Source: a virus
Reading direction: 5' to 3' (one strand)
Virus record (IMG/VR): IMGVR_UViG_3300036861_001052
Coordinates: 62,001-126,000 of that record
Length of the DNA stretch: 64,000 nt
Shown here: positions 19,124 through 36,834 of the stretch, in pieces
How positions within the stretch are numbered: position 1 is the stretch's first letter
Layout: every line of letters starts with the position of its first letter
Notes under the pieces: model-generated
The model's database searches: none
What the model was told of the DNA's origin: nothing
The model's input: only the letters and a program-made list of their open reading frames with translations
Made by a program: the position numbers and the translations under genes

Positions 19124-19578
19124 TGTACAGGCGCGACGGTCAGCCGATGCCCGAGCACGAAGAGGGCGCCGCCTTCTTCAAGCCGATTGCGGGGCCCGAA
19201 GCGGAGACGGGTCAGATCTGGGGCGTCCAGAAGAATCTCCTCACGCACGGGTTCAATGTGCACGGTCTCGGCGTCCCGGCGATCGATCCCAACACGAGCA
19301 TGATCTCCGACGAGGAGGCCGCGCTCCGGAGCGGAGCGGAGACGCTCCCCGAAGTGAGGATCGAGGGCCAGCCCATGGGCGGCGCAGAGTTCTACGAGAG
19401 CTCCTTCTGGAGACTTCTCGCTGTCGCCGGCATGGCCGTCGGCGCCTACCACGGATACAAGCGGAACAATTCCGTGGGTTGGGGCATCGGCTGGGGACTT
19501 CTCGGCGGACTCGTTCCGATCATCGTGATCCCGATTGCACTCGCACAAGGGATCGGAAAACCCAAAGGCAGGTCGTGA
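19123..19578 (+). CDS. Membrane protein, 151 aa, two helices
   Basis: Soluble N-terminal part with VHGLGVPAIDPN near residue 48, then hydrophobic segments at about 93-109 and 122-143 with a Gly/Trp-rich loop. Basic C-terminus. Coupled on both sides by overlapping start and stop codons. Confidence 0.6.
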   Translation: MYRRDGQPMPEHEEGAAFFKPIAGPEAETGQIWGVQKNLLTHGFNVHGLGVPAIDPNTSMISDEEAALRSGAETLPEVRIEGQPMGGAEFYESSFWRLLAVAGMAVGAYHGYKRNNSVGWGIGWGLLGGLVPIIVIPIALAQGIGKPKGRS

Positions 19579-20438: not shown

Positions 20439-21049
20439 TGTCGAACTTCGGTCCCATCGCGTACGAAGACTTCTCCCAGCTGAACGCTCGGTGGGGAGAG
20501 GCGCGGCCTGCCGTTGCCGGTCTCGGCGTCGTGTCGGGGCCGCACGACTACGTCGATCTCTCCTACCTGAACGCCCACTACCGGCCGATCCAGCCGGCGG
20601 GCGTCGGCATGGGAAACGGGATCCTCTCCTCGAACTCGCTCGGCATGCTGTCGGGCGGAGGGCTCGGCGAAGATCCGAGCTATCCCTGGCGGGAGTACAG
20701 CGCGGACACGAAGGCGCTCCAGCAAGCGACCAACGAGGCCCTCCAGGCGCACGGCTACGCCCCGATCACGGCCGACGGAAAGCTCGGGCCCGCGACGTGC
20801 GGCGCCATCCGCGCCATGTGCCAGTACGCCGGCGCGGGCTGCGAGGCTCCGGGGACCTGTCAGGACTTCGCGGCGCCTGTGAAGGCTGGCGGCGGCTCGC
20901 TCCTCTCGAAGTCGACCGGGACGAAGACGACGACCGCGTCGCGCGCGAGCATGTTCGGGGGCGGCGGCACGAACTGGATGCTCATCGGCGGCGCGATCGC
21001 TGCGGTCGCGGTCGGCGGCGCCATCATCTACAAGGCGGCGAAGAAATAG
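20438..21049 (+). CDS. Tail-anchored protein with one peptidoglycan-binding-like module
   Basis: 203 aa, GTG start overlapping the previous stop. It has VAGLGVVSGP near residue 27, GGGLGEDPSY, then the module KALQQATNEALQAHGYA, TADGKLGPATCGAI, which is close to the modules of the gene before it, so the two are paralogues. Cysteines AMCQYAGAGCEAPGTC may form disulphides. C-terminal helix at about 178-197, ending KAAKK. Confidence 0.7.
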   Translation: MSNFGPIAYEDFSQLNARWGEARPAVAGLGVVSGPHDYVDLSYLNAHYRPIQPAGVGMGNGILSSNSLGMLSGGGLGEDPSYPWREYSADTKALQQATNEALQAHGYAPITADGKLGPATCGAIRAMCQYAGAGCEAPGTCQDFAAPVKAGGGSLLSKSTGTKTTTASRASMFGGGGTNWMLIGGAIAAVAVGGAIIYKAAKK

Positions 21050-21421
21050 ATGCCGACTCCGATCGACGTCGTGCAGTCCCGGCTCGGTGTCCCGCGATCG
21101 GGACACTGGGATAGGACCACCGACGGGGCGATCCTCGCCTACCAGTCGAGCGGCAAGGGTCAGTACCCGATGCGGCCGACGGGGCATCCCGATCCGGCGA
21201 CGCTCGCCAATCTCGGCTACTTCGATCCCAAAGAGATGCTCCCCGAGCGCTGGGCGAACTACCTCGGGGGCGGGGCTAAACCGGGGACGTTCGGGAGGGA
21301 CGTCCGGACGGCGATCGATCAGGTCCCGCGCTGGGCGTGGGGCACGGTTGCCGCGGCGTTTTCGGTGTTCGCGATCATGGCGTACCGGACCGATCGAAAG
21401 CGCGAGAAAGGCGGCCGCTAG
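21050..21421 (+). CDS. Tail-anchored protein with short peptidoglycan-binding-like module
   Basis: 123 aa. The start MPTPIDVVQSRLGVPRSGHW, then TTDGAILAYQ and DPATLANLGYF match a minimal PG_binding_1 module. The membrane helix (about 94-112) is followed by a long basic tail. Third wall-binding-like protein in a row, which supports a role in host-wall attachment or entry. Confidence 0.65.
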   Translation: MPTPIDVVQSRLGVPRSGHWDRTTDGAILAYQSSGKGQYPMRPTGHPDPATLANLGYFDPKEMLPERWANYLGGGAKPGTFGRDVRTAIDQVPRWAWGTVAAAFSVFAIMAYRTDRKREKGGR

Positions 21422-22302
21422 TGCTCGGAGATCTCGCCGACATGTACGACGAGCTCGCCGGAGCTCCGGGGATCCCGTGGGCGGGCCTCACGGCCGACGG
21501 CCACGGCATCGAGGAGAACGGCTACGACCCGACGTACATGGACTACATGCTCAAAGACGGAGCGGAGTTCTTCGGCGTCGTCGGAAGCCTCGGCCCGGAC
21601 TTCGTAGCGAAGTATCGGACGCTCCGTGAAGATGAAGGGCGCGCGAGCGTGACGCGCATCATGGCGATCATCGATCAGATGGGCACCGACGTCTGGCAGG
21701 CGGTGAAAGACGGCGACTGGGACGCCTTCGTGGCCTTGCCGCGAACGACGACCGTCGATGCGTTCGCGGCGCTTGCGGCCGCTGCCGCCAACGGCGCCTT
21801 CCTCCACTACGACGGCATCATGGAAGCGGCGATGCGGGCGAAGAAGCTCAAGCCCGCCGAGGTCGTCTCCCACGCGAACAACGTGACGAAGGTCTTTCAG
21901 ACGTTCGTGGACCTCGACAAGAACGGTCACTTCGCCGACTTGAAGAAGAAGCCGCCGCCCGTGGCGGGTCTCGGCCTCGCGCCGGCTCTCATTGCGGCCA
22001 TCGTCGCCATCGGCGTCGTGCTGCTCCTCGGGCTCTGCTATCTCATCTACGTCATAAAGCTCGCCGCCCCTGCGCAGCAGAAGGCGCTCGAGTGGTGCGA
22101 CAAGGTTGCCAAGGAGGGATCCAAGGAAGACGCGATGGCGTGCGCAAATCTCGCCGCCAGCATGGAGCAAAAGGGAAACCCGCTCCTCGGTAACATCTTC
22201 GCCCAGGCGCTCACTCCGATTTTCGTGGTGCTCGCCATCGGTGCGGCATTCTGGATCGCGCCGACGGTCATTCAGGGGATTCGCAAAACTCGAGCCGCGT
22301 GA
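21421..22302 (+). CDS. Membrane protein, 293 aa, two helices
   Basis: GTG start overlapping the previous stop. Helical soluble domain of about 170 residues, then VAGLGLAPALIAAIV leading into a strong hydrophobic helix (about 180-207), a loop with two cysteines and a second helix (about 262-283). No family recognised; candidate virion membrane or entry protein. Confidence 0.6.
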   Translation: MLGDLADMYDELAGAPGIPWAGLTADGHGIEENGYDPTYMDYMLKDGAEFFGVVGSLGPDFVAKYRTLREDEGRASVTRIMAIIDQMGTDVWQAVKDGDWDAFVALPRTTTVDAFAALAAAAANGAFLHYDGIMEAAMRAKKLKPAEVVSHANNVTKVFQTFVDLDKNGHFADLKKKPPPVAGLGLAPALIAAIVAIGVVLLLGLCYLIYVIKLAAPAQQKALEWCDKVAKEGSKEDAMACANLAASMEQKGNPLLGNIFAQALTPIFVVLAIGAAFWIAPTVIQGIRKTRAA

Positions 22303-22652
22303 TGTCGACGCTCATCTACTCGAGGTGGCGTCCGGACGAAGGTGGCTACGACTACTTTCAGTCCTCGCTCCGCCAGAACATCAACGACGATCTGCCCGCG
22401 CCCGAGCTCGTGGCCTCGAAGATCGGCGTGCCGTCGATCGAGGCGGGGCGGCCCATTCCGAATGACTCGGTGCCCATCGGAAGCGGCGAGGTGGCAGTGG
22501 GCCTCGTCGCCCCGGTCGACAGCTCGCGCATCGTCCGGAGGACGCGGTCCCTTTCCGGGAGCGATCCCATGAGCGTCTACAAGAGCCCGTGGTTTTATCT
22601 CGGCGGCGCGATCGCCGTCGGCCTCATCTATATGGTCATGAAGGACAAGTGA
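22302..22652 (+). CDS. Tail-anchored membrane protein, 116 aa
   Basis: Soluble part rich in Pro, Ile and Val, then a C-terminal helix (about 93-113, WFYLGGAIAVGLIYMVM) with a KDK end. Overlaps both neighbours at stop and start codons. No family recognised. Confidence 0.6.
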   Translation: MSTLIYSRWRPDEGGYDYFQSSLRQNINDDLPAPELVASKIGVPSIEAGRPIPNDSVPIGSGEVAVGLVAPVDSSRIVRRTRSLSGSDPMSVYKSPWFYLGGAIAVGLIYMVMKDK

Positions 22653-23218
22653 TGACGGTCCGGGTCATAGAAACCAAGGACGTCGCTACGAAAACGTTCG
22701 AGACGTTTTACGATCGGCCAAGCAAGAGGGAGATCCCGCTCGAGTTCGGGTGGCCGAAGGAGCTCCAGGAGGTCGGCGTCGGCAAAGCGGAGATGTACAC
22801 CTCGAACAAGTGGAAAAAGAGCCGCTCGGACTTCGAGGACTACAAGCACGTCGCCGAGGGCCTTCGCACGGTGTACGCCGAGCCCGGCTTTCTGCGAGTT
22901 GGCGCGCACCCGGCGCGCATGATGCCGGTCTACGGACCGATGGCGAGCTTCGAGGAGCCGATGCCGAAGCACTTCGCGAGGCTCGGGCCGCTTCTCGGTG
23001 TGCAGGTCAGGCTCTACGACCGGGACGACAAGGGTGAGCTCTACGTGCCGGGCGGCGACGATCGGGTCTACGAGGTCGAGATTGCGCGCGCCTGGCTCGG
23101 CTCGGCCAGGCACCCAGGCACCAAAGAGACCTTCCTCTTCGTGTACACTCCGGATGGCGTCCACATGATCCTCACGGGAGACAAGCTCTCCATCGAAAAG
23201 GACGGCATTGCCGGGTGA
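22652..23218 (+). CDS. Soluble hypothetical protein, 188 aa
   Basis: No membrane helix, unlike its neighbours. Beta-rich C-terminal half (GVQVRLYDRDDKGELYVPGG, KETFLFVYTPDGVHMILTG) and a basic N-terminal half. Possibly a peripheral partner of the surrounding membrane proteins. Unknown family. Confidence 0.6.
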   Translation: MTVRVIETKDVATKTFETFYDRPSKREIPLEFGWPKELQEVGVGKAEMYTSNKWKKSRSDFEDYKHVAEGLRTVYAEPGFLRVGAHPARMMPVYGPMASFEEPMPKHFARLGPLLGVQVRLYDRDDKGELYVPGGDDRVYEVEIARAWLGSARHPGTKETFLFVYTPDGVHMILTGDKLSIEKDGIAG

Positions 23219-25143
23219 CGTATTCTCTCACGGCGTCTGGCCTTTACGTCCCGGAGAGACTCCGGGGCTTGGGCGTCACTCCGCCTCCGCGGATGCCGCT
23301 CCCGCCCGACGCTGGCACTTCGAATAATCCCGCCGACCAGGCGCGCGGCTTCATCCCGCCGGAGGAAGCCGCTGCGGCCCGCAATGCCTACCCGTCGGGG
23401 CAGATGCCGTGGGTACCGACGACGCCGACCGAGGTCGGGCCGTGGGCGAAGGAGCAGGCGAAGCTCTTCGCCTCGAAACAGATCCAGGAGGGCATCGAGC
23501 GCGGTAAGCGGATCTTCGAAGACAAGCTCTCGGGCGCGACCCCGGTCACGGTCGAGCCGTTTCCTCCCATGAAAGAGGACGAGATCGAAGCGTGGGTGAA
23601 GTTTTTCGTCCTTGCCCACGGCTACCCTACGAACGCAGCCGACGGCGTCCGGTTTGCGCGAGAGTTCGTGCTCGCAAACTGCGATCAGATCGGGCTTCCA
23701 CCGGAGTTCATTGCGGCGAGCGATCTGATTCAAAACTTCCCCGACACGCCCGAAGAGGCCGTGACCTGGGCCATTAACCTCGGCTCCTCGTTCCTCGCGT
23801 CGTTCGGCGTGCCGCTCGTGGACGTGTCGGACGCCTCGAGCTTCATCTCCGCGAGCGCGCGGGCGGCCGTTGCTCAGGTCGCTCCGGGCGTGCCGTTTGA
23901 CTTGTTCGAGACGACGTTCGATGCGCTCTCGGACGGGCGCGTGACCTCGGCAGAGGCGAAGGGCATCGTCATCGGCGCCGCGGGCTTCGTCGGCGCCGTG
24001 ATTGGGCAAGCGTTTGGCTTGCCAGCTCCGCTCGGCGCCCTTCTCGGTCAGCTCATCGTCGGAGGCCTGTCCGAGGCATTCGGGTGGGGACCGGACGATT
24101 CGGAAAAGCTCAAGAGCGCGCAGGACGCCGCGGCCGCCGCGGCTGCGACAGCGCACTCGCAGTGCCAAGATCTCTCCATCGCGCTCTGGCTCGAGTACCA
24201 GCACTACTGGGATGCGATCGCAAAGACTCTCGATGCCACCATTCGCCAGAACCAGTCCTGGCTCACGCCAGAAGGCTCCTGCCTCCGAACGAACGGCATC
24301 CGCCTCTTCGGCTCGACGACGCTCGACATCATCCGTGACGGCGCTGGCATGCCCCTCATCACGAACCCCGCCGAAGTGAAGAAGGGCGCGCGGCCGAAGT
24401 ACCGGACCTATCCTGTCAAGATGACGAGGTCGTGCGGCGATGCGCGCGGCTGCCCGTACCTCTCCATGCCGATGGAGAAAATGCTCAGTCGGGATAAGTG
24501 GCCGCTCGCTCCTGACGATCTCCGCCGTGTGCCGTCGATCTCCGCCGGCTCGGCGGGATGCGACGCCACGGGCGCGCTCCTCTTCTGGGGAGCTCGCCGG
24601 TACGTTAATCCCATGCATGTCTTTTACGCCATGCAAGGGAAAGCCAATCAGTGGGTCGAGCCCGACACGTACCGAGCGACCGAGCTCTCGAGCCGGAACG
24701 TCCGCCGCTGGGAAGAAATCGTGCACTCGGACTACGACTACCTCTCGTCGGTCGTCGGCTACGTCGGCACGATCAACTTCGGCACGGCCGTGAGCGAGTG
24801 TCCGGCGCCGGCGTGGGCGGCGTTCATGTTCAAGTCGCTGGAGCAAGCGGCGGCAGCGGTTGCGCTCGTGCAGCGGGATCTCGCGCGCACGGTCTCCGCG
24901 GCGACGACCGAGTACGGAATCAAGTACCACATGGAGCAGGCGGCCCAGGTAAACTGGGAAGTCGCGACCACAACGCAAAAGCGCCAAGCCGCGCGCCAGG
25001 TTGCCGCGCAGGCAGCGGGTCTCCGGCACGCGGTCGTGGAAGCGAAGCGGCGCGGTCGCGAAAAGTCCGACCTCTTGAATTACGGCCTCCTCGCTGCGGG
25101 CGGCGCGGCCGTCTTCGGGCTAGCTCTCGGGAGCAAGCGATGA
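23215..25143 (+). CDS. Large tail-anchored membrane protein, 642 aa
   Basis: Residue 18 onward has LRGLGVTPPPRMPLPP. The centre contains a Gly/Ala-rich hydrophobic stretch at about 240-275 (GIVIGAAGFVGAVIG). The second half carries several cysteines (SQCQDL, GSCLRT, RSCGDARGCPYL, AGCDATG), pointing to an oxidising or exposed location. A basic helix precedes the C-terminal membrane helix (about 618-637). Longest of the tail-anchored set apart from the Arg-rich protein. Function unknown; a spike or entry protein is conceivable. Confidence 0.6.
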   Translation: MTYSLTASGLYVPERLRGLGVTPPPRMPLPPDAGTSNNPADQARGFIPPEEAAAARNAYPSGQMPWVPTTPTEVGPWAKEQAKLFASKQIQEGIERGKRIFEDKLSGATPVTVEPFPPMKEDEIEAWVKFFVLAHGYPTNAADGVRFAREFVLANCDQIGLPPEFIAASDLIQNFPDTPEEAVTWAINLGSSFLASFGVPLVDVSDASSFISASARAAVAQVAPGVPFDLFETTFDALSDGRVTSAEAKGIVIGAAGFVGAVIGQAFGLPAPLGALLGQLIVGGLSEAFGWGPDDSEKLKSAQDAAAAAAATAHSQCQDLSIALWLEYQHYWDAIAKTLDATIRQNQSWLTPEGSCLRTNGIRLFGSTTLDIIRDGAGMPLITNPAEVKKGARPKYRTYPVKMTRSCGDARGCPYLSMPMEKMLSRDKWPLAPDDLRRVPSISAGSAGCDATGALLFWGARRYVNPMHVFYAMQGKANQWVEPDTYRATELSSRNVRRWEEIVHSDYDYLSSVVGYVGTINFGTAVSECPAPAWAAFMFKSLEQAAAAVALVQRDLARTVSAATTEYGIKYHMEQAAQVNWEVATTTQKRQAARQVAAQAAGLRHAVVEAKRRGREKSDLLNYGLLAAGGAAVFGLALGSKR

Positions 25144-25289
25144 CCGACGCCGACGTGAAGAAGGCCCTCCTGGCGATCGCCGCCGAGCTCAAGCGCCAGG
25201 AGCACGCGGAGATCCGCCTCGGCATCATCGGTCTCATCGGACTCGGTCTCATCGGAACCGCTGGCTACTTCCTCTGGAGGAAGCGGTGA
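25140..25289 (+). CDS. Tail-anchored microprotein, 49 aa
   Basis: A charged helix (KKALLAIAAELKRQEHAEIR) runs into a single membrane helix (about 26-45) ending LWRKR. ATGA overlap with the gene before and GTGA with the gene after, which makes it very likely translated. Confidence 0.65.
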   Translation: MTDADVKKALLAIAAELKRQEHAEIRLGIIGLIGLGLIGTAGYFLWRKR

Positions 25290-26335
25290 CCTACAGCGGG
25301 CTAGGATTCGGCTTCTTCACGGAGCCGTGCGGCATCAACGTGGAAGGCACGGATCATTTCGTGGCCGGCCCGACCTATCAGGCGCTCGAGACCGTGGCGC
25401 AGGACACCGTCACCGTGCTCCTTTCGGGGCACGGCAACGTGCAGCTCTGCGGAAATCTCCTCCCCTACGTGGCTCCGGCTCCAGGAGTAGCGGCCGTCTT
25501 CGGGGCGCACGAGCAAACGGCGCGGCTGATTGCAGCGACCGTGCTCGCTTCGCTCATGGAGCAAGAGAGGAGGAAGGCCCACGGGACTCGAGCCTCGACC
25601 CGCATGCTCGCCGAGAGGCTCGTCCCGGAGATCGTGCAGACGCTGACGCACAACGGAGACCCCGCGGCCTGTCAGATCGAGTTCGAGGCGTCGTTTCGGA
25701 ACTGGTCGGGCCTCTCGGCGCTGAAAGTGCCGACGACGGTCTCGAAGACCGGCTGGTGCGAGAAGAGCCTCGCTCTGCCGTGGGATAGTGCCGGCCACAT
25801 CCGGTCGTGCGAGGCGCAAGCGATCTGCAAATCTGTCATCGGCGCGGGCGGGGCGATCCAGTACGTCACGAGCCCTCCGCCGGCTCCGACCGATCCGCGC
25901 GTGGCCGCGAGCGCGCCCGGGACGACGCCGTCGCCGCCTCCGACGAAAGCGGAGATCGAGGCGGAAGTCCGCCGGAAGATGGTGGCGAGCGGAGAGACCG
26001 TAGCGGACCGAGAGAACAAGCAGGAGTTCACAGAGCTCGCGGCGTACTTGAAGGCGCTCGGAGAGGCGCGGCGCTACCTCACGATGGCGCTCGGGATCCC
26101 GGACAAGTCGACCGACGCGGCCGTAGCCGCGGCGCTCGGTCACGAGGGGATCGCCACGGCAGAGGTGCTCGACTGGTTTTTGGGCTGTAACTTCGAGCCC
26201 GGCTGCTTTCGCGAGCAGATGAATCTCTCGCTCGGCGAGGCGAGGCGCTACTCGAGAGACACGCGCGCGAAGATCGCTGTCGCCGTGGGAGGAGTCCTCG
26301 CCGTGGGATTTCTCCTCTTTAGGTGGAGACGCTGA
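25286..26335 (+). CDS. Tail-anchored membrane protein, 349 aa
   Basis: Begins MTYSGLGFGFFTEPCGINV. Six or more cysteines in the soluble domain, a Pro/Thr-rich linker at about 200-220 and a C-terminal helix (about 325-344) ending RWRR. Built like the 642-aa protein two genes upstream. No family recognised. Confidence 0.6.
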   Translation: MTYSGLGFGFFTEPCGINVEGTDHFVAGPTYQALETVAQDTVTVLLSGHGNVQLCGNLLPYVAPAPGVAAVFGAHEQTARLIAATVLASLMEQERRKAHGTRASTRMLAERLVPEIVQTLTHNGDPAACQIEFEASFRNWSGLSALKVPTTVSKTGWCEKSLALPWDSAGHIRSCEAQAICKSVIGAGGAIQYVTSPPPAPTDPRVAASAPGTTPSPPPTKAEIEAEVRRKMVASGETVADRENKQEFTELAAYLKALGEARRYLTMALGIPDKSTDAAVAAALGHEGIATAEVLDWFLGCNFEPGCFREQMNLSLGEARRYSRDTRAKIAVAVGGVLAVGFLLFRWRR

Positions 26336-26694
26336 TGCCGCCGCCACCACTCTTGAAGGCGCCGAGCTGGGAGCAGGGGCGCCCCGCGCGAAACCTCGCG
26401 TACGTTGCCGTGCTTTTACAGGAAGCACACATCGACCCGAAGAAGATCCCGAAAGGTCAGGTCATCTTTGCGCTGGCAACGCCGTACGAGCAGCGCGGCG
26501 TGACGGGCAGAGACATCGAGCGCTGGGCGCTCGAATGCGATCCGGCTAAAAAGCCCGCCTGGGATCCGGTCGAGTGCTTCCGAAAGAAGGCCCGGGCGGC
26601 GATGGCGCCACGGCCAGGGCTCGGCACCAAGGTCGCGCTCATCGCCGGAGCCTCGTTTGTGGCGGCTTTTGGCCTTGCGCGCTGGCTCCGGTAG
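26335..26694 (+). CDS. Tail-anchored membrane protein, 119 aa
   Basis: Helical soluble part with two cysteines (LECDPAKK, VECFRKK) and a C-terminal helix (about 97-115) ending in Arg. Overlaps the previous stop by one base. Last gene of the operon that began near 16.7 kb. Confidence 0.6.
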   Translation: MPPPPLLKAPSWEQGRPARNLAYVAVLLQEAHIDPKKIPKGQVIFALATPYEQRGVTGRDIERWALECDPAKKPAWDPVECFRKKARAAMAPRPGLGTKVALIAGASFVAAFGLARWLR

Positions 26695-26815: not shown

Positions 26816-29272
26816 GTGAGAGGCAAGCACAAAGCGTACGGTCGAGCGTTTCCAATCCGGGAAGCGGACGTCGGCTCGTACAAGGTAGCGCGTCACCGTC
26901 CCTATCGAGCGAATCCGATGGGCGTGACGACGCTGTCGAGCGTCAACGGCCCGGGCGCGTATTCCGCGCGTGCGGCCTCGAGTGGGCTTTCCCGCGCCGA
27001 GCGTCTGCGGCGCGCGCGCCGGCTCATGGAGAACCGAAGCATGCAAGGACACAAGGTGCACAGGGCCAAGTTCGTACGGCGCATGAAGGCAAACAGCGGT
27101 CGGATGACCTCGAACGCTGCCCGACGCCGCGCGGGCAAACGCCTCGCTGCGTTTCAGGCAGCTCGGCGTCGTGGGCTTTCGAAGGAAGCGGCGATGCGGA
27201 GCGCGTCCCGGAAGTTTCCGAAGAGTCGCCGGCGTGGCTACCGCCGAAACGAGGGACCGGCTCAGGTCGCTTCCCCCGCCTACCGGTCGGGCCACGAGCG
27301 GATCTACGGGAAAAAGGCTCAGCGAAGGCGCGCCGCCGCGGCAAAGCGGAAAGCGCATCGCGCCGAGGTCGCCGCGCGTAAGCGCGCTCGTAAGGCTGCC
27401 GCTCGCGCGAAGAAGCGCGCAGCGATGACGCCGGAAAAGCGCGCTTCGCTCCGAAAGCGCCGCCGCAGGGCGAGCTTTCCTAAGCAGTACAAGAAGGTGC
27501 GGGGCCGAAGGGGCAAGATGCACCGAGTGCGAGTGGCGTACGGACCGTACCGCCGCGCGCGCCTTTCCGATCCGAGGTCAGGCCGAAAGCGCCTCTCCTA
27601 CACCTATCGAGGCAAACGCGGCAAACGCCGCAAGATTCCGCAGTGGGCCGTTGCCGGAGCAGTCAGTGCGCGCGACTACAAGACGTCGAGCGTGTACGGG
27701 CGCGCCCGGGAGCGGATCGCACGGCGTCGTAAACGTGCTGCCGCTCGCGTAGAGCGCAGCGGAGATGCGTTCGTTCCGAACGCGGGAGCAAGAAAAGTGG
27801 CAAGACGAAGAAAGCGAAAAGGGCACAAGCGTTCCCGCCGGGGACGTCGCAAGGTGAAACGGACGCGCGGTCGCGCGCGGCGCCGATCGGCGGGTCACAC
27901 CGTCCGCAGGCGCAAGAGGCGCAAGTCAGCGAGCCGCCGGACAGCCCGGAAGCACCGTGCGAGCCCGCATCGCCGGAAGAAGCGTCGTGCGCACGCGAAG
28001 AGGCGTTCCACGCGCCGCCGGTCCAAGCGCCGGTCGCACCCGCGTCGGATCGGTCGCCGCAAGGTGAGGCGCCTGAGAAAAGGCATCTACCTGGTCGCGA
28101 ACCGCCGTCGCCGTCGCTCGCGCCGCCGCTACGAGGAAAACCGCAGGGTCCGCCGGCATCGTCGTCGGAAGCTCGCGGCAAATCCGCGTCGCAGGCGTCG
28201 CTCGCGGCGTCACGTCGCAAACCGCAGGCGCCGAACGCATCGGCGTCGGAGCTACCGTCGTAACCGGAGCTACCGCCGTAACGGCTTCATGGGCGACTTG
28301 AAGACGCTCGCGAAGATGGGCTTCCTGGTCCTCGGCGGCTTCTTCCTCCACAAGGGGATCACGGGCGGAATCATTCGGGCGCTGACGTCTACGGACGCCT
28401 CGACCGGAGCGATGACGTTCGCCTCGCTGCCGATGATCGGAGCCGACGGCAAACCGACGGTTCTCGCGACTTGGCAGAAGCCGCTCGTCGGAGGCCTGTT
28501 CGGCGGTCTCGGCATCTTCGGGATCTCCAAGCTCCCGATGAAGTCGGACACCCGGAATGCGCTGTCAGCGGGCGTGGTGACGTCGTTCCTTCAGAGCCTC
28601 GTCCACACGATCCTGACTGTCGCAAACCAGCCGGAGGTCCTCTCCTATCTCGAGGGTTACCAGAACAGCGCAGCGTACTCGCTCCGCGGTACCCGAGGGA
28701 AACGGCGCCGTCACCCGATGCGAGGCCTCGGCGTCGCACGGAACGCGACGTCGATCATGCCGCACTACGCACCTGTCGGACAGTTCCAGCAGGCCGCAGC
28801 CGGCATGGGCGAGTACTTCGCGGCTCAGAGCGGCATGGGTGAGTACTTCGCGGGTCCCGGCGTCGAAGGCGTCGGTCACTACGAGAAGGCTGGCCCCTTG
28901 GCGCTTCAGCCCTCGACGAGCCGGATGGGTAACCTTCCGATCGACGACGGCATTCGCCCCGACTCGAACCTCGACCACGTGATGGATCTCGCGGAAAGCG
29001 CGGCCGGTCTCGGCCAAGGTTTCCGTCAGGCCGCCGCGGGAGTCGGGGCGGGCCCGGGTTACCGGCAGGCAGCTGCCGGTATGGGCGAGTACTTCTCGGC
29101 TGCCCCGCAAGACGGCGGCTACAAGGAGTTCTCGGTCCCGACGCAGTCGCAGTGGATCCCCTCGGGGCCCCTCTGGGCCGGCACGATGAGTGCCGACGCT
29201 GCGTACACGGAGAGCGAGCTCCCGGCTGGGATCCTCCAGGGTCCTGGCGGAAACGGAGTGCTCTCGGGCTGA
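26816..29272 (+). CDS. Protamine-like Arg/Lys-rich membrane protein with GEYF repeats
   Basis: 818 aa. The first 490 residues are extremely basic, with long Arg runs such as NPRRRRRSRRHVANRRRR, like DNA-condensing proteins. A hydrophobic region follows (MGFLVLGGFFLHKG, LVGGLFGGLGIFGIS, FLQSLVHTIL). The C-terminal 190 residues repeat GMGEYF three times and have MRGLGVARNA and AAGLGQGFR. It could tie the packaged DNA to the virion membrane (inference). GTG start; it precedes the capsid genes. Confidence 0.7.
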   Translation: MRGKHKAYGRAFPIREADVGSYKVARHRPYRANPMGVTTLSSVNGPGAYSARAASSGLSRAERLRRARRLMENRSMQGHKVHRAKFVRRMKANSGRMTSNAARRRAGKRLAAFQAARRRGLSKEAAMRSASRKFPKSRRRGYRRNEGPAQVASPAYRSGHERIYGKKAQRRRAAAAKRKAHRAEVAARKRARKAAARAKKRAAMTPEKRASLRKRRRRASFPKQYKKVRGRRGKMHRVRVAYGPYRRARLSDPRSGRKRLSYTYRGKRGKRRKIPQWAVAGAVSARDYKTSSVYGRARERIARRRKRAAARVERSGDAFVPNAGARKVARRRKRKGHKRSRRGRRKVKRTRGRARRRSAGHTVRRRKRRKSASRRTARKHRASPHRRKKRRAHAKRRSTRRRSKRRSHPRRIGRRKVRRLRKGIYLVANRRRRRSRRRYEENRRVRRHRRRKLAANPRRRRRSRRHVANRRRRTHRRRSYRRNRSYRRNGFMGDLKTLAKMGFLVLGGFFLHKGITGGIIRALTSTDASTGAMTFASLPMIGADGKPTVLATWQKPLVGGLFGGLGIFGISKLPMKSDTRNALSAGVVTSFLQSLVHTILTVANQPEVLSYLEGYQNSAAYSLRGTRGKRRRHPMRGLGVARNATSIMPHYAPVGQFQQAAAGMGEYFAAQSGMGEYFAGPGVEGVGHYEKAGPLALQPSTSRMGNLPIDDGIRPDSNLDHVMDLAESAAGLGQGFRQAAAGVGAGPGYRQAAAGMGEYFSAAPQDGGYKEFSVPTQSQWIPSGPLWAGTMSADAAYTESELPAGILQGPGGNGVLSG

Positions 29273-29447: not shown

Positions 29448-31028
29448 ATGGCAAAACTGACGAACGTCAGAGAGCGTGTGCATCACGCGGACGTTCGGTG
29501 AAAGCGAAAGCTGGTGCCCCTCGGCGGTAACGCCGGGGTGATAACTGGGTGAATCAAACCGTTTCGTGATGAGAATGAGAACTTCAGACACAGACATCGC
29601 CTGGCTTGCTGGAATCGTGGACGGCGAGGGCTGCTTCTCCGTGAAGCGTCCCATCGTTCGCAAGACCTACAAGAAGGGGCGAGTGACGAGCTACCAAGTG
29701 TGGCTGGTCGTCTGTAATACGTCCGAGCCGATGGTACGTCGGGTCACGGAGATCTTCGGATCTCTCGGGATCGGGCACCAGCCGGTGAGGCGCGTCTGGA
29801 AGGGAAAGAAGGCAACTCGGTGGCAGTACTGGGTGCACGTCGCGCGAAAGCACGAGCTCTTGCGTCTGACGGAACTCCTCCTGCCTTTCCTCGTGGCCAA
29901 AAAAGACGAGGCCGAGATCGTGCGCTGGTTCCTATCGAGGGCTTGCAGCACGAGGCAATACGTTCCCACTCTTCTCGATCGTACCGCGCTCGAAGCGATG
30001 GCCACGATCAAGCGACACGGCGGGGAAGCCCCTGCTGAGGTGCGAGAGCTCCTTCGCGAGGTAATCCCGAGCCAAGCCGTTTCTGGGATCCGTGCGGCCC
30101 ACGGATTGGAGACGGAAGGCGTAGAGACTAGGTCGGTGACTCCCAAGAATAACCCGACCCACGAGTGCCCGGCGCCCCTCCACTTGGTGGGGTGATGAGA
30201 TAGCCCGACACTCCGGGAAACCGGAGAGCCCGCATAAACAGCGGGCATGACAGAAGCAAGCAGCCGTTTTACGACACGCTCATCCGAACCTCCGGTCTCG
30301 GCGGTTCCATCCCCAAGGTGAATCAGCGGACCTCGCTGTTCACGAACCAGGCTCGCCAGGACGACATCAACGCCCTGACGAACCTGCCGAACGGTTCGAC
30401 GCTCCCGTCCGACCAGAGCCACGTGACGCTCGCGCTTCGCGTGTTCATCTGGTTCCGCAATCCGCAGATCCGCGCAAGCGGCTTTGCGAACGGTGCGATC
30501 AAGAACAACGGCGACTTCTCCCAAGCGGGAGCGGCGGCGTTCTTCTCGCAAGGCGGAGTCGACCCGAACGGCGCGACCGCGGGCCCCGGCGCCTTCAACT
30601 ACCCGGGCTCGATCGAGGACGTCTACCGCCTGTACTGGCAGTCGGAAGAGCAGCTTCACTGGAGCTACGGCACCGGTGACAAGTTCTCGATCACGAACAT
30701 GCCGACGAAGTACTTCCCGGACGGCGGTGGCCTCTGGGGTGACCTCGGTGGCTCTTCGGATCTCATCCACTTCAACAACGGCACGCCGGACCACACGGCA
30801 ATTCTCCGGCTCGCGCGCGCGATCCTTCTGCCTCCCCGGCAGAACATCAAGTGCGCCGCCGAGATCGTGCCCTTGCCCGACGGTGGAAACGCCCAGATCG
30901 CTGGATCGACCGTGACCGGCAACGGCCGGAACATGCTGTCGCTCCAGGACAACCTGAACGCGACCGACGGGATCAACAAGGTGATTCAGTTCACCTTCGA
31001 CGGTCTCTTCGCCCGCGACGTTCAGTAG
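29448..31028 (+). CDS. Candidate capsid protein, gene split by a group I intron
   Basis: Exon 1 is only about 11-20 bases (MAKL...). Exon 2 resumes near 30257 in the frame KQPFYDTLIRTSGLGGSIPK and runs to 31028. Splicing 29458 to 30257 gives about 260 aa starting MAKLKQPFYDTL. Exon 2 has no in-frame ATG, so splicing is needed for a normal start; GTG 30318 lacks a ribosome-binding site. Beta-rich, no membrane helix, no cysteine-rich part. Its abundance-type neighbours and leader suggest a major virion protein, maybe jelly-roll; fold not provable here. Confidence 0.6.
29459..30256 (+). mobile_element. Group I intron with homing endonuclease
   Basis: About 800 bases between a stop-containing 5' part and the recovered 3' frame. 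A strong stem CGAACGUC/GACGUUCG (29461-29497) encloses a second stem GCGUG/CACGC, in the position of P1-P2. Core-like elements follow: AGAGACUAGG at 30123-30132 resembles the R segment and GAUGAGAUAGCCCGAC at 30194-30209 the S segment. Near the 3' end is a stem GCCCGC/GCGGGC. Exact splice sites are uncertain: 5' at 29458 or 29467, 3' G at 30253 or 30256. Confidence 0.75.
29569..30195 (+). CDS. LAGLIDADG homing endonuclease, intron-encoded
   Basis: 208 aa, starting at ATG 29569 (GTG 29566 and ATG 29575 possible). WLAGIVDGEGCFSVK is a clear LAGLIDADG motif at residues about 13-27. The later helix HELLRLTELLLPFLVAKKDE fits the single-motif class, which acts as a dimer. It cuts intronless alleles and so spreads the intron. 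The stop codon lies in the intron core, as usual for such ORFs. Confidence 0.9.
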   Translation: MRMRTSDTDIAWLAGIVDGEGCFSVKRPIVRKTYKKGRVTSYQVWLVVCNTSEPMVRRVTEIFGSLGIGHQPVRRVWKGKKATRWQYWVHVARKHELLRLTELLLPFLVAKKDEAEIVRWFLSRACSTRQYVPTLLDRTALEAMATIKRHGGEAPAEVRELLREVIPSQAVSGIRAAHGLETEGVETRSVTPKNNPTHECPAPLHLVG

Positions 31029-31139: not shown

Positions 31140-32132
31140 ATGGCAAGTTGGGAACAGGTCATTCGAGACCTGCAGAACACGGCAGGCTTTGCCGCCGCAA
31201 AGGCGAAGGAAGCGATCGACAAGGCAGGCCGAAACGAGAGCGCCCTCGCGCTCGTCCGGCAAGAGCTCGAACGCGAGCAGCGCTCCATGCAAGCGCTCGC
31301 CGACGCGCTCGAAAAGGTCCAGGGCCGCGGCGCGGGCTACGGTAACGGTAACGTCGGCGTCGACGAGCGCGTGCGCTACATCGAGTCGATCCCGGGTCGC
31401 AGGATCCCGTTCGACTTCGTCGTGACGATTCCTATTTCTTCGAACTCGGTCTCGCAGGTCCAGGGCACGAAGACCGTGAGCCAGGACGGGCCGTTCGTGG
31501 CGGTTGCGCGCTACGCGGCGTTTCAGTCCGCGTTCCAGTTTCAACGGGTAGACCCCGTCACGCAGGAGAAGGCGGTCTTTCAAGGACGCTCCTTCGGCCG
31601 TTTTCGTCCGATGCACTCCATGTGGGACCTGAACGATGCCTCGACCGGCGTCTTTCAGCCGACGACCGGCATCGCTCAGCCGGGCACGGGCGCGCCGATC
31701 GTGGCGGCTCCCTCGAACATGTCGTCCTTCCGCACGATGGAAGGCGACTTCATCATCCAGATGCTGAATCAAGGCGCTGGCTACCCTCGCGACAATCAGG
31801 ACGGCGGCATTCCGAGCGCCTGGTACTCCGAGAGCATCAACAGCCCCTTCCAGCTCGGAGCCTTGGACTTCTTCGAGCGCGGCGAGACGATCCAGTGGAA
31901 GGTCACGCCGACGCACGTCAATAACCCGCCGGCAGGTAACCTTTCGGGTTACGCTGCGGGTGGCGTGTTCCCGTTCCTCGCGAGCCAGTACGACGTGCAC
32001 GAGGGCATCAACGACCAGCTCGATCCCGAGGCAACGAGCGATCCCATCACGAGGCTCCCCGACGGGATCTTGTGGATAGGGATGCACGGGATCAAGATCG
32101 TGCAGCCCCCCGGGCCGGTGAGGCTCACCTAA
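31140..32132 (+). CDS. Candidate second capsid protein, coiled coil plus beta domain
   Basis: 330 aa. Residues about 1-65 are a helix with coiled-coil features (LVRQELEREQRSMQALADAL), then a Gly-rich hinge (GRGAGYGNGNVG). The rest is beta-rich (IPFDFVVTIPISSNSVSQV, FQLGALDFFERGETIQWKV). The strand pattern and size fit a jelly-roll type virion protein, by inference only. Sits between the intron-split gene and another beta-rich protein of similar size. Confidence 0.55.
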   Translation: MASWEQVIRDLQNTAGFAAAKAKEAIDKAGRNESALALVRQELEREQRSMQALADALEKVQGRGAGYGNGNVGVDERVRYIESIPGRRIPFDFVVTIPISSNSVSQVQGTKTVSQDGPFVAVARYAAFQSAFQFQRVDPVTQEKAVFQGRSFGRFRPMHSMWDLNDASTGVFQPTTGIAQPGTGAPIVAAPSNMSSFRTMEGDFIIQMLNQGAGYPRDNQDGGIPSAWYSESINSPFQLGALDFFERGETIQWKVTPTHVNNPPAGNLSGYAAGGVFPFLASQYDVHEGINDQLDPEATSDPITRLPDGILWIGMHGIKIVQPPGPVRLT

Positions 32133-32140
32133 GGAGAATT

Positions 32141-33046
32141 TTGACCCTCCGATCACATTTGACGCCGCGGCAGGTCAAGGGGCTCGGCCTCGGAGCCCCG
32201 TCGCCGCCGGCGGAGCCCGTACGCGTGCTCGATCCGTGGCGAGGCGATCCGCCTCCTCCTCAGCCCTACGAGGGCGAGGGGATCAGCCACGGCTGCGACG
32301 CTTCCCGGGTCCAGCTCGCCGGAGGGGCGCTGAACACCCTCCTCGTCCATCCCGAGGTGACGCCCTTCGAGCAGCTCTACCGGCGCCTGCCCGAGGAGGG
32401 GATGTTTCTCGACTCGGTCGGCCCGGAGAATCCGTTCACGTTCGAGCTCGGGGCGTTCCGCGTGCCGGACACGTTCACGCTGCTCTTGTTCGATTTGAGG
32501 CCAGACATCTATCGCTTCAGCGGCGTGGATCCGGGAGACACGATCCCGGTCGAGGCGCGGCGCTTCAGCTCGGTTCTCGGCTTTCAGATCACGGTCGACC
32601 AGCGCCAGCCCGCCAATCTCCTCTACCAGCTCGATCCGGCGCCGATTCAGACGTTTCCCGAGGCCTTCACGAATCCGATCGGCGCTCCCGGCGAGCTCCC
32701 GCCCGCCATCGCGGCGGCAATCGGTTTCCAGAACGGATCGCGCTTCAACCTCTCTCAGGCGACGAGCGTCGCGACGGCTTCGGGCGCCGGAGACCAGCTC
32801 CAGCCACAGAGGCCGACCCGGTACGGGCCCTTGTCCGTGCCGTTTACGATGTACATCCGGCCCGGGCAGACGTTTCAAGTCCGCTGCGTGATCTTCAATC
32901 CGGTGCCGAGCCCGATTGCGTTCATCGAGTACGACATCGCTGGCATGCTCATGCCGGACACGTGGGTGACGACGATGACCGAGTGCATGAAGCCGCTCTC
33001 GAACGCTTCGCACGGTCCAGGCTCTCTCGGGGGAGGTCCACGGTGA
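32141..33046 (+). CDS. Candidate third capsid protein, 301 aa
   Basis: AAGGAG at 32131-32136 is followed by TTG at 32141; no ATG fits. It starts with VKGLGLGAPSPP, then a beta-rich domain (FELGAFRVPDTFTLLLFDL, FSSVLGFQITVDQ) and a C-terminal strand set (VPFTMYIRPGQTFQVRCVIF). Three consecutive beta-rich proteins of 260-330 aa resemble the paired single jelly-roll or vertex proteins of tailless viruses, but similarity is not demonstrable by eye. Confidence 0.55.
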   Translation: MTLRSHLTPRQVKGLGLGAPSPPAEPVRVLDPWRGDPPPPQPYEGEGISHGCDASRVQLAGGALNTLLVHPEVTPFEQLYRRLPEEGMFLDSVGPENPFTFELGAFRVPDTFTLLLFDLRPDIYRFSGVDPGDTIPVEARRFSSVLGFQITVDQRQPANLLYQLDPAPIQTFPEAFTNPIGAPGELPPAIAAAIGFQNGSRFNLSQATSVATASGAGDQLQPQRPTRYGPLSVPFTMYIRPGQTFQVRCVIFNPVPSPIAFIEYDIAGMLMPDTWVTTMTECMKPLSNASHGPGSLGGGPR

Positions 33047-33192
33047 CTTCGGTGAAGGAGGCCAGCCGGCCGCCGTCGCGCTTCCAGCGGGTATGGACGA
33101 ACGCACCCCTATCGGACATGGGGGCTGTCGAGTCTTACTCGGGAAACGGCGGACGGCTGGCCTCCTTCACCGAGCTCGAGGCGTCATGGTGA
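33043..33192 (+). CDS. Small protein, 49 aa, encoded across an inverted repeat
   Basis: GTG in a GTGA overlap with the previous gene. The N-terminal codons (TSVKEASRPP) lie in the left arm of a 20-base inverted repeat and the last codons (GGRLASFTELEASW) in the right arm. Translation coupling supports it, but the repeat may be the functional element instead. Confidence 0.4.
   Translation: MTSVKEASRPPSRFQRVWTNAPLSDMGAVESYSGNGGRLASFTELEASW
33049..33173 (+). repeat. Perfect 20-bp inverted repeat around an 85-bp segment
   Basis: TCGGTGAAGGAGGCCAGCCG at 33049-33068 returns as its reverse complement at 33154-33173. In RNA it would form a long stem. In DNA it could flank an invertible segment. It lies right after the third capsid gene. 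Confidence 0.8.
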
Positions 33193-33953
33193 TGCAGAGC
33201 TACGTCGAAGGCGGCGCCTCCCAGATGGGGACGGCGTGGGACGAGATCGGGATCTTGCCTGCTCCCCCCGGAACGTCGCTCGGCCAGATGGACGCGATGA
33301 GTCTCTTCTCGGAGGTCTCGGACGCGCTCCGCCTGCGGCCCATCGGTGTCGTGACGCCCTGGGCAGCACGCGTCGGTGATCTCGAGTGGGAGGACATTCC
33401 CCATCCCGACACGAACGTGATGCTCTGGGAGCTCACGGACGCGGCCATCAATGCCGTGCCGGAGGTGACGTTCGGGAGTCCCTTGCCGTTCGTGGGGATC
33501 GTGACGTCGCGGCCGATGAGCGTCGCAGAGACGCGAAAGATGTGGGAGGGGACAGCCTACGCTCCGTACGAGACGCAAGCCGTCTACCGGCAGGACGACG
33601 CGAAGGATCCGCCGACTGCGCTCTTCTTGCACTGGGGCGAGCGCATCGACATCGCGAAGCTTCCGAAGGAGGTCTTGCTCCTCGGCCCCCGCGCTTCGGC
33701 CGCCGCGGGAAGCCTCGTCTTCGCGGCTCAGATCCCAGCGCAGAATTCGACCACGCGCGCAGCTCCGTCGAGCTCGTTTGCTTCGGTCCTCGCGCGGCAG
33801 GCGCCGCTTCCGCCGGAGCCGCCGCCGAATCCCACGCCGGGCCCGATCCCTCTCGGCCCTGTCAAAGAGGACAAGATGAATCTCGGCGTGCCGATCGCCG
33901 TAGGGCTAGGGGCAGCGGCTCTCGGCTTCTTGCTCTGGAAGAGGAAGAGGTAA
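33186..33953 (+). CDS. Tail-anchored membrane protein, 255 aa
   Basis: Start ATG 33186 overlaps the end of the 49-aa gene. Soluble domain of about 180 residues (TPWAARVGDLEWEDIPH), a Pro-rich stalk (LPPEPPPNPTPGPIPLG) and a helix (about 233-250) ending LLWKRKR. A stalk plus anchor suggests projection from a membrane surface, as in spikes. Confidence 0.6.
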   Translation: MVMQSYVEGGASQMGTAWDEIGILPAPPGTSLGQMDAMSLFSEVSDALRLRPIGVVTPWAARVGDLEWEDIPHPDTNVMLWELTDAAINAVPEVTFGSPLPFVGIVTSRPMSVAETRKMWEGTAYAPYETQAVYRQDDAKDPPTALFLHWGERIDIAKLPKEVLLLGPRASAAAGSLVFAAQIPAQNSTTRAAPSSSFASVLARQAPLPPEPPPNPTPGPIPLGPVKEDKMNLGVPIAVGLGAAALGFLLWKRKR

Positions 33954-33958
33954 GGCGC

Positions 33959-34333
33959 ATGTATACGGGCGTTGGACAAGACTCTGGCATGGTGTTTCTT
34001 CCTGGGAGCATCACTCCGCGCCCGACGGCGCCGGCCCCTTCCCAGCCGCCGCGCCTGATCCTTAAGCTCAAGCCGGACGGCGGCACGTGCGACTTCGCCG
34101 AGCAGTGCGCCGGTCACATTTGCCGGAACGGCCTCTGCCGCTCGGGCGTGATACTCAAGCAGCCATCGCGTCCCCCGGCCGAGTCGACACCAGCGCCCGT
34201 CCCGTCGCTGGTCGTCAGCGAAGGCGAGCCCACTACCGAGCCCGGAGCTCCGAAGTCATCGAAGCTCCCGCTCTACATTGCGGCGGGCGGCGTTGCCGTG
34301 CTCGGCATCGCCTGGCTCGTCATGAGAAAGTAG
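33959..34333 (+). CDS. Tail-anchored membrane protein with cysteine knot-like core
   Basis: 124 aa. Starts MYTGVGQDSG, then a Pro-rich stretch, then GGTCDFAEQCAGHICRNGLC: four cysteines in 20 residues, like small disulphide-rich domains that follow the pattern C-x5-C-x4-C-x4-C. Another Pro-rich stalk and a C-terminal helix (about 103-120, ending VMRK) follow. Disulphides imply an extracytoplasmic or virion-surface location. Confidence 0.6.
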   Translation: MYTGVGQDSGMVFLPGSITPRPTAPAPSQPPRLILKLKPDGGTCDFAEQCAGHICRNGLCRSGVILKQPSRPPAESTPAPVPSLVVSEGEPTTEPGAPKSSKLPLYIAAGGVAVLGIAWLVMRK

Positions 34334-34344
34334 GAGATAGAGAG

Positions 34345-35172
34345 ATGTTCGTAGGACAAGGCATGGGCCGGCGCGCACAAGGCGGTCTCGGTCTCTATCA
34401 GCCGACGCCTACCGGCATCAAAGTGACGGCGCTTCCGACGTGCGCATTTCCCGCGGAGAAGGCGGAAGCAGCGAGCAAGTGTCAGACGATGAGTCTTCAC
34501 GGGCTCGGTCAGACGATGACGCGGGTCACGGGGCCGATGACGGGCAGGCTCGCCGGCTACTCGCCCTGCGACATCGTGAACTACCCCGTCTGCCCCGAGC
34601 CGAAGTGCATCGACGAGCAGACGGTCACCACGATCCTGAAGTGCGCCAACGGCCTACCGGTAGAGGGCGTCGACTGTAACACGCCGAGCACCGCTCTCTA
34701 TCTCTACTCGCTGTCGCTTCTGCCCTATTGCGGCAAGCCGAGCTTTTTGGCGCCGCCGCCCTCGTGTCTCTCGAAAGACCAGCAAGCCCTCATCGGGTAT
34801 TGCGACGCGCATCCCGACTTCAAGGGCCCGAACAAGTCGTGGAACAACATCTGCTGGGTCAACACGCACGACCCCGTGTACTGGGCGAAGCTTCGAGCGG
34901 TGAGGCCGTGCCCGGTGGCCGCGCCGGCCGCTCCACCTCCGGTGAGGCCCCCGCCGGTCTTGAAGCCTCCGCCCGCGGCGCCGCCGCCGGTTCGTCCTCC
35001 TCCATCGGCTCCGCCGCCCGTCACGGCGCCGCCGTCGGACATGGTCCCGCCGGAAGACATTCCGGACGAGCCGGAGCATCGAGAGTCCGCCATGATGGGG
35101 CTCTGGGGGATCCTCGCGCTCGTGGCCGTGGGAGGCGGGGGATACTACCTCTACAGGCGCTACAAGAGATGA
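34345..35172 (+). CDS. Cysteine-rich tail-anchored protein with proline stalk
   Basis: 275 aa. GGLGLYQPT and LHGLGQTMT near the start; about eleven cysteines in the first 190 residues; then a stalk of PPPVRPPPVLKPPPAAPPP type and a helix (about 249-268) followed by a basic tail. AGGAGATAGAG lies before the ATG. Probable surface-projecting virion protein. Confidence 0.6.
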   Translation: MFVGQGMGRRAQGGLGLYQPTPTGIKVTALPTCAFPAEKAEAASKCQTMSLHGLGQTMTRVTGPMTGRLAGYSPCDIVNYPVCPEPKCIDEQTVTTILKCANGLPVEGVDCNTPSTALYLYSLSLLPYCGKPSFLAPPPSCLSKDQQALIGYCDAHPDFKGPNKSWNNICWVNTHDPVYWAKLRAVRPCPVAAPAAPPPVRPPPVLKPPPAAPPPVRPPPSAPPPVTAPPSDMVPPEDIPDEPEHRESAMMGLWGILALVAVGGGGYYLYRRYKR

Positions 35173-35366
35173 CCATGAACCTCGTCGCCATCGCCGGAGT
35201 GCCCTTCGGGGAGAGCGTGACGCTGCCCCCGGGCTCGGGCCCCTCACAGCCCTACGTGGCGACGACAGAAGACAAGAAGGCGATGTGGATGGCGCTAGCG
35301 GCGCTCGGCGTCGGCGCAGTCGTGGGCTACGTCTTTCTCGGTGACATGGTGCGGAGGGGCGCGTGA
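35169..35366 (+). CDS. Tail-anchored membrane protein, 65 aa
   Basis: ATGA overlap with the gene before. Short Pro/Gly-rich N-terminus, membrane helix at about 39-57 (MALAALGVGAVVGYVFLG) and a basic end. A second ATG at 35175 is possible. Coupled also to the next gene. Confidence 0.6.
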   Translation: MTMNLVAIAGVPFGESVTLPPGSGPSQPYVATTEDKKAMWMALAALGVGAVVGYVFLGDMVRRGA

Positions 35367-35587
35367 GAGATCCCGTCCGCACAGCCGCATCGGCTGCCGA
35401 GGTCCTCGGGCCCGCGATGGACGATGTGGGAGGCCCGGTCGGGCTCGTCGGGCGGGCCATGGGGCTCGGAGCCGACGAGATCGACGCCGGCATTCCCGGC
35501 TGGGGCTGGTTTGGCGTCGGCGTCGTAGCCGGCGGGATAGCCATGTACTTTTTGCGTGACCGGCTCCGCGCTTTCGCCGCGGACTGA
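35363..35587 (+). CDS. Tail-anchored membrane protein, 74 aa
   Basis: GTG start in a GTGA overlap. Contains AMGLGADEIDAGIPGWGW directly before the membrane helix (about 46-63). The GLGAD element matches that of the Gly/His-rich, 108-aa and 171-aa proteins, in the same position relative to the helix. Confidence 0.65.
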   Translation: MRDPVRTAASAAEVLGPAMDDVGGPVGLVGRAMGLGADEIDAGIPGWGWFGVGVVAGGIAMYFLRDRLRAFAAD

Positions 35588-35621
35588 GCCACGGTAGGAT
35601 TGACTCAGAAGGACCATCCAC

Positions 35622-36584
35622 ATGAACTCACTCGGCGCCTACTTCGGAAGCACGCGAATCGTTCAAGGGGCAGGTGGGCTCGGCGACGACTACCTCCAGG
35701 CCTATGCCGACGGCGTCGTCGGCGGGAGCGCCCCGAATGCGGAGATGCCGGGTCCGATCACGGCGTACCGCGACGGAAGCCTCGGCCGGATGTCGCACCA
35801 GTACGGCGGAGGCGACTCGGGCGAGCTAGCCGCTTGGGCTGACGGCGTCGTTGGTGGGAACGCCCCCGACGCGGTCCCGGGCGAGCTCTTCGCCTATCAC
35901 GACGGAAGCCTCGGTGCCGAATCGAACCCCGCGACGATCGGCGACGACATCTCGTCCTATCACGACGGCGTCCTCGGCGACCGCAAGAACTTCGTTGTCC
36001 CTGGCTTCGGACCGCTCCAGTCCTTTCACGACGGAAGCCTCGGCGCGTACGCGGCTGCGATCGGAGCGGCGGCGGAAAACGTCCTCGATCTCGGCGACGC
36101 CAATGTCTTGAAGGAACTCAAGGTGGCGATGAGCTTCATCGCTCCCGAGCAGACGCTCACGATGGACGGCCAGAAGGTGTACACGCCCGACTGGTACACG
36201 AACGGGATCTGGGATCCTCAGGCCTCGCTTCTCTGGCAGTACATCGTCAGTAAGACGAGCGCCTTCAAGGGCAAGAGCGTCTCGGTCGACATCGGCGCGC
36301 AGACCTACCCGAACGCGACCGGCATCGGCTTCATGGTGGCGGCTCTAGCCGCGCCGCAGTCCGGGACCTACGGCCCCGACTACGTGAAGAAGAACCTCCC
36401 CGCGCTCTACGCCTGGTTTACGGCCGGCGGAGGCACAGTGCTCGCTCCGTACCTGTCCCTCACGGACAAGACGAAGGGCGCGCGCGGCACGCCGAGCTCG
36501 GAGATGAAGATGAGCACCGTCGCGCTCTACGGCCTCGGAGCCGTGGCGCTCTTCGGCGTCGCACTCGTCTTTTGGAAGAAGTGA
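35622..36584 (+). CDS. Tail-anchored protein with six YxDGxLG repeats
   Basis: 320 aa. Residues about 25-150 carry six copies of an eight-residue unit: AYADGVVG, AYRDGSLG, AWADGVVG, AYHDGSLG, SYHDGVLG, SFHDGSLG, spaced about 20 residues. A folded domain and a C-terminal helix (about 297-316, ending VFWKK) follow. GGLGDDYLQ precedes the repeats. A weak promoter (TAGGAT at 35595-35600) and AGAAGGA lie upstream. The repeat is not a family I recognise; Asp-Gly units suggest metal or glycan binding. Confidence 0.65.
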   Translation: MNSLGAYFGSTRIVQGAGGLGDDYLQAYADGVVGGSAPNAEMPGPITAYRDGSLGRMSHQYGGGDSGELAAWADGVVGGNAPDAVPGELFAYHDGSLGAESNPATIGDDISSYHDGVLGDRKNFVVPGFGPLQSFHDGSLGAYAAAIGAAAENVLDLGDANVLKELKVAMSFIAPEQTLTMDGQKVYTPDWYTNGIWDPQASLLWQYIVSKTSAFKGKSVSVDIGAQTYPNATGIGFMVAALAAPQSGTYGPDYVKKNLPALYAWFTAGGGTVLAPYLSLTDKTKGARGTPSSEMKMSTVALYGLGAVALFGVALVFWKK

Positions 36585-36587
36585 GCC

Positions 36588-36824: not shown

Positions 36825-36834
36825 GTTCGTCATC

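Follow-up and report, generated by a model that had tools for sequence, protein, structure and literature searches.

The window analysed here, 64,000 nucleotides in length, covers positions 62,001 to 126,000 of a 138,414-bp virus record (G000:C1:62001-126000). It contains a gene whose 818-aa product (92 kDa, predicted pI 12, zero cysteines) carries a polycationic domain, hydrophobic segments and a part with GEYF motifs in one chain. The parts of the gene are:

26816..29272, plus strand: whole gene for the 818-aa basic/membrane/GEYF protein, GTG start, TGA stop
26816..28282, plus strand: polycationic domain, residues 1-489, net charge +182, with a counterpart in every homologue
26840..26962, plus strand: N-terminal conserved motif GRAFPIREADVxSY...NPMGVTTLSxVNGxGAY, residues 9-49, from alignments, recognisable in 10 of 10 homologues
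27530..27682, plus strand: conserved motif within the basic domain, RVAYGPYRRARxxDPRSGRxxxSYxxRxKxxxRRIPQWAxAGAxSAxDY, about residues 239-289, from alignments
28310..28378, plus strand: hydrophobic segment 1, about residues 499-521
28478..28534, plus strand: hydrophobic segment 2, about residues 555-573
28559..28621, plus strand: hydrophobic segment 3, about residues 582-602
28622..29269, plus strand: C-terminal part, acidic and Gly-rich over residues 641-818, the best-conserved region among distant members
28802..28819, plus strand: GMGEYF copy 1, residues 663-668
28832..28849, plus strand: GMGEYF copy 2, residues 673-678
29078..29095, plus strand: GMGEYF copy 3, residues 755-760

The reading frame is real. 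A DNA-repeat artefact was considered as its source and rejected: all six types of Arg codon are present, TRF found only two tiny repeats, the frame is intact in nine other assemblies, and dN is lower than dS in every part of the gene. Relative to the closest relative, L002, dN/dS is approximately 0.14 for the N-terminus, 0.2 for the basic part, 0.33 for the membrane part and 0.19 for the C-terminal part; the protein is under purifying selection. Ten homologues, the one in the window included, were found in separate metagenome assemblies among IMG/VR and GTDB contigs, the others lying in eight virus records (61-140 kb) and one MAG contig. All ten carry the basic part, the hydrophobic segments and the GEYF half in one unbroken frame, and the gene is a core gene, present in each of the four genomes compared in full (G000, G004, G006 and G008). 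Searches of Pfam and PHROGs with the protein returned no family at E values up to 1. Neither its C-terminal half, used alone as query, nor the 236-aa protein encoded downstream matched INPHARED phages, and the 818-aa protein had no match among the 72,556 plasmids of PLSDB. In the databases searched, homologues of the protein turned up only within its own virus group.

The first 490 or so residues had been described, in an earlier note on this DNA, as mostly Arg and Lys. The strongly basic character holds, with 152 Arg and 46 Lys to 16 acidic residues, but "mostly" overstates the composition: Arg and Lys make up 198 of the 489 residues (40%), climbing to about 55% at residues 350-450, and conserved non-basic motifs lie inside the domain. 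Across the homologues the net charge of the basic part, delimited by an automatic cut, ranges from +115 to +192. The ratio of Arg to Lys shifts from 130/4 in L024 to 84/90 in L026, with 152/48 for the window's protein in that comparison, so that the sequence diverges while the charge stays. Conservation of polycationic character, rather than of sequence, fits the expectation for a charge-driven nucleic-acid binder. Nine of the ten homologues have no cysteine, and L026 has two.

A polycation can bind either RNA or DNA, and composition alone cannot separate the two. The basic domain might accordingly bind RNA, ribosomes or host membranes, in which case the protein, with its hydrophobic segments, would be a host-takeover or lysis factor. 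We regard this as very unlikely, since a polycation of 300-550 aa occurs in every member of the group within a structural-type module and exceeds what a lysis factor would need, and separate cell-wall enzymes of the SLT transglycosylase and amidase families are encoded.

Hydrophobic segments following the basic half and three copies of GMGEYF in a Gly-rich C-terminus had also been noted, and both observations are borne out. The segments number three and recur in the average over the ten homologues; the motif, starting at residues 663, 673 and 755, occurs exactly three times, with approximately zero copies expected in composition-matched shuffled proteins. The segments are Gly-rich and of moderate hydrophobicity (Kyte-Doolittle values up to about 1.5). 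Segment values of 1.2-2.0 are only moderate, and the automatic scan finds two segments rather than three in L002 and L015. Loop 1 is neutral or acidic in most members, the loop after segment 2 carries net positive charge in nine of the ten, and the C-terminal part is net negative in all ten. These predicted loop charges fit an N-inside/C-outside arrangement, in which the membrane would separate the basic half from the acidic GEYF half. The topology is blurred by the residues immediately following segment 3, which are basic in most members.

Shortly before segment 1, the Arg tracts are interrupted by Asn-containing breaks. These would suit a precursor that a maturation protease cuts into a free basic core protein, comparable to the adenovirus precursor core proteins, and a separate membrane/GEYF envelope protein. 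G[LM]G sequences might serve as sites of cleavage or docking. The proteins of the surrounding module (window positions 17182-40169) contain 28 G[LM]G where 6.8 are expected, a four-fold enrichment, versus 17 where 23.6 are expected elsewhere. The modules of the other genomes are similarly enriched (observed versus expected, 30 and 7.8 in G004, 13 and 5.9 in G006, 10 and 3.7 in G008). However, the fusion is unsplit in all ten members, and no protease was recognised in the called ORFs among the family matches listed. We consider the precursor model unlikely.

The gene lies inside a syntenic block, at approximately 17 to 40 kb of the window, that was delimited by tblastn against the relatives. 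Its other main features are:

17182..26694, plus strand: upstream half of the module, syntenic, with hydrophobic C-terminus ORFs, mostly with a basic tail, at 17182, 18626, 19036, 19479, 21050, 21337, 22299, 23215, 25286 and 26323
30318..31028, plus strand: 236-aa protein, candidate capsid, with 56-93% identity the most conserved in the module
31140..32132, plus strand: 330-aa protein, candidate capsid, with an N-terminal helix followed by a strand-rich part in a low-confidence model
32120..33046, plus strand: protein of about 308 aa, candidate capsid, conserved
33093..40169, plus strand: downstream half of the module, with anchored ORFs at 33093, 34087, 35622, 36588, 36835, 38234, 39571 and 39852
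36835..37350, plus strand: second GEYF protein, 171 aa, with GEYF four times and then a C-terminal membrane anchor with a final Arg

ORFs with a hydrophobic C-terminus, defined as one with a tail no longer than 16 residues, account for 18 of the 31 called ORFs in the module. Outside the module they number 12 of 186 (Fisher p=9e-11). Most of the tails finish in Lys or Arg. The same enrichment is seen in G004 (19/28 versus 10/166) and G006 (13/25 versus 17/126); it is weak in G008, the most distant genome (5/24 versus 10/160). Among the called ORFs of G000, GEYF is found in the 818-aa protein and in the 171-aa protein and nowhere else, and in several relatives GEYF also occurs in anchored proteins. 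AAGxGEYF was also tried as a broader virus motif and rejected, the IMG/VR matches outside the group being single, out of context or unrepeated and appearing to be due to chance.

Several other features of the region were noted. One anchored ORF of the module (19479-20438, plus strand) has peptidoglycan-binding-like domain repeats, a C-terminal membrane anchor and an NKKRR tail, the family call coming from bulk Pfam matches and reading of the sequence. Between the gene under study and the 236-aa gene lies a LAGLIDADG-type endonuclease gene (29566-30195, plus strand; PHROG name "HNH endonuclease", E=2e-14). It was not found at that site in the relatives, and the corresponding gap in L002 is only about 280 bp. 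Collagen-like repeat genes are present at 40200-44457 and in L005/L006, and several of them share an MSRYGSVxIxS head, which suggests swappable fibre tips. No Rfam match was found over window positions 17000-46000.

A basic domain with a membrane anchor would serve equally well inside the cell, tethering viral DNA to the host membrane during its replication or organising a replication site as a non-virion protein. Such a role seems distinctly unlikely given the position of the gene, which in the conserved module has genes for anchored proteins on one side and probable capsid genes on the other and is distant from the DnaB/DnaC-like genes at window positions 72-2182, and given that GEYF is common to this protein and another of the module.

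The 236-, 330- and approximately 308-aa proteins are soluble, are encoded downstream of the gene under study and are conserved in all members compared. From position and conservation, they are probably the capsid proteins. AlphaFold models built from 8-sequence alignments reached pLDDT values of 34 (236-aa) and 38 (330-aa) and are too poor for the fold to be read. A PDB fold search with the latter model gave no match at E<=0.001. PDB sequence searches with A5 and A6 gave chance or coiled-coil matches only, and hhalign comparisons of A5, A6 and A7 with the capsid proteins of PRD1, PM2 and P23-77 stayed below 1% probability.

The ends of the G000 record carry a perfect repeat of 127 bp, from which its genome is probably complete. 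End repeats are also present in G004 (9.9 kb) and G006 (132 bp), and all three genomes look complete. The ends of G004 (L035, L041) form a 9,887-bp terminal redundancy that is 99.99% identical, giving a unique genome of about 120.5 kb. The group most likely infects bacteria. The only hint of a host comes from L026, which carries the module and belongs to a Pseudomonadota MAG (KLAP178); the contig may be viral and have been placed in the bin of its host. A tRNA search identified one tRNA-Met, in G008, which is uninformative in this respect. We found no paper describing this virus group under IMG identifiers.

A 1279-aa ORF (53849-57688, minus strand), unusually long, includes a tyrosine integrase domain spanning residues 455-526 and is homologous in G004 over 1,354 columns. 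An integrase, together with the lack of any recognised hallmark virus gene, could indicate that the record is a plasmid-like or other mobile element rather than a virus. This we consider highly improbable: a phage-type endolysin, a lytic transglycosylase, nucleotide kinases and a helicase loader are present, the 818-aa protein is unmatched in the plasmid collection, and eight related virus records, which IMG/VR classed as viruses, carry the same module.

Nine records were searched for the genes that mark tailed viruses and for packaging motors. With the models used, TerL, portal and HK97-fold capsid, the hallmarks of Caudoviricetes, were found in none of them: the terminase models PF03237, PF03354 and phrog_2, the portal model PF04860 and the HK97 capsid model PF05065 matched 0 of 9 records, while the controls for terminase, portal and HK97 models did match. 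The phrog_2 model also matches archaeal controls, and the Pfam terminase models were therefore added. The P9/FtsK-type ATPase of the internal-membrane varidnaviruses (PRD1, PM2, P23-77) was likewise not found. The FtsK/HerA family (PF01580) gave no match over the cut-off in the nine records, with a single weak match inside DnaB, and phmmer searches with the PRD1, PM2 and P23-77 packaging ATPases found nothing at E values up to 1 in 5,069 six-frame ORFs from four genomes. In G000 the strict Walker A pattern, which does catch those three ATPases, picks out the DnaC-like loader, DnaB, an AAA protein with 42-43% identity to AAA-ATPases of mycobacteriophages, and a few matches without ATPase character; no Walker A protein is common to G000, G004, G006 and G008. 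A divergent packaging ATPase in the group is possible. The AAA-ATPase gene at L008:2807-4366 (minus strand) has a product that shares 42-43% of its residues with mycobacteriophage AAA-ATPases (phrog_8638, E=8e-158), and neither G004 nor G008 showed a counterpart.

We think it somewhat likelier than even that the 818-aa protein condenses the genome while anchored in a membrane, as a matrix-like protein of a group of tailless, membrane-containing dsDNA viruses, most likely bacterial. The earlier note had proposed that it might line the inner face of a virion membrane and bind the genome, and that proposal is partly supported, indirectly, by the core status of the gene, its module context, the kept charge and the predicted loop charges. 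Two observations go beyond that note: GEYF recurs in the 171-aa membrane protein, and the genome shows no detectable packaging motor. The polycation of about 490 residues would face the lumen, where it would neutralise and condense the genome. The two or three hydrophobic segments would anchor the protein in the viral membrane, and the acidic Gly/GEYF half would lie on the opposite side, between membrane and shell. There it might contact other anchored proteins, one of which has the same GEYF motif, or the putative capsid proteins of the neighbouring genes. Since a packaging motor was not detected, the DNA would be enclosed by co-assembly, as proposed for PM2, with membrane patches loaded with the protein collecting condensed DNA and wrapping it. 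By arithmetic, about 1,500 copies would balance all genome phosphates, and partial neutralisation needs fewer.

To our knowledge, the protamine-like core proteins of adeno-, asfar- and baculoviruses are not fused to a membrane domain. They resemble the 818-aa protein in being Arg-rich polycations proposed to neutralise packaged dsDNA (PMC3281028). Its Arg/Lys-rich, strongly positive chain, kept in 10 homologues, is as in protamine-like proteins; these are typically smaller than 15 kDa (PMC6163548), whereas it is 92 kDa. Looser analogues are A278L and A282L of PBCV-1, which are basic and genome-bound in an internal-membrane virion but come from an algal virus, are reported at about 63-69 kDa with kinase activity, and have no membrane fusion described in that source (PMC3281028). 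Another looser analogue is VP11 of P23-77 (Matshushitaviridae), a basic minor capsid protein with a pI of 10.63 (PMC12429598); the phage has an internal membrane and two major capsid proteins. VP11 has 187 aa, 27% K+R and 24 acidic residues; P23-77 has a packaging ATPase, and no sequence similarity between VP11 and the 818-aa protein was found.

Internal-membrane varidnaviruses encode several anchored virion proteins beside the capsid gene; in the module studied here, ORFs with hydrophobic C-termini are enriched next to candidate capsid genes, and their products are possible virion proteins. P3 of PM2 (Corticoviridae) has a C-terminal hydrophobic anchor and basic tail like those of the module proteins. 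The PM2 genome is proposed to be enclosed along with membrane and capsid formation, through contact between the nucleic acid and a phage-specific patch of membrane (PMC6356626). PM2 P3 and P6, however, lack a polycation (9 K+R to 7 D+E in 104 residues, and 16 to 15 in 127), and PM2 has a 10-kb genome and encodes the P9 packaging ATPase, none being detected in the group studied here.

By sequence features, the 818-aa protein would be a viral genome-condensing polycation in kind, and a member of no named family. Its nearest functional analogue is ascovirus P64, a 64-kDa, Arg-rich virion protein with a pI of 12.2 that was shown to condense a dsDNA genome of 100-200 kb (PMC6163548). The two were compared by description, and the P64 analogy, like that to PM2 co-assembly, is functional only. 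Both proteins are large and basic, and the basic repeats of P64 vary widely among relatives (PMC6163548). P64 differs in having virus-specific two-Cys adaptor (vs2C-ad) motifs, where the 818-aa protein has no cysteine and instead has hydrophobic segments and an acidic GEYF half, and P64 comes from insect viruses rather than prokaryotic ones. We also raise, tentatively and as rather unlikely, a wider proposal: a prokaryotic virus lineage of 110-140 kb, unrelated to known tailed and PRD1/PM2/P23-77-type viruses and without a packaging motor. Its large dsDNA genome would be condensed by a polycation bound to the membrane, which would also drive the enclosure of the DNA by membrane and shell, a matrix-type assembly in bacteria. 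If true, a group-wide, 92-kDa, membrane-tethered polycation without a detectable packaging ATPase would make motor-free enclosure of a genome of more than 100 kb testable. It would also counter a statement from 2012, made in a study of chlorovirus DNA, that evidence is lacking for a large contribution of basic proteins to the neutralisation of phage dsDNA genomes (PMC3281028), and it would exceed in size P64, termed the largest known virion protein with a genome-condensing function (PMC6163548).
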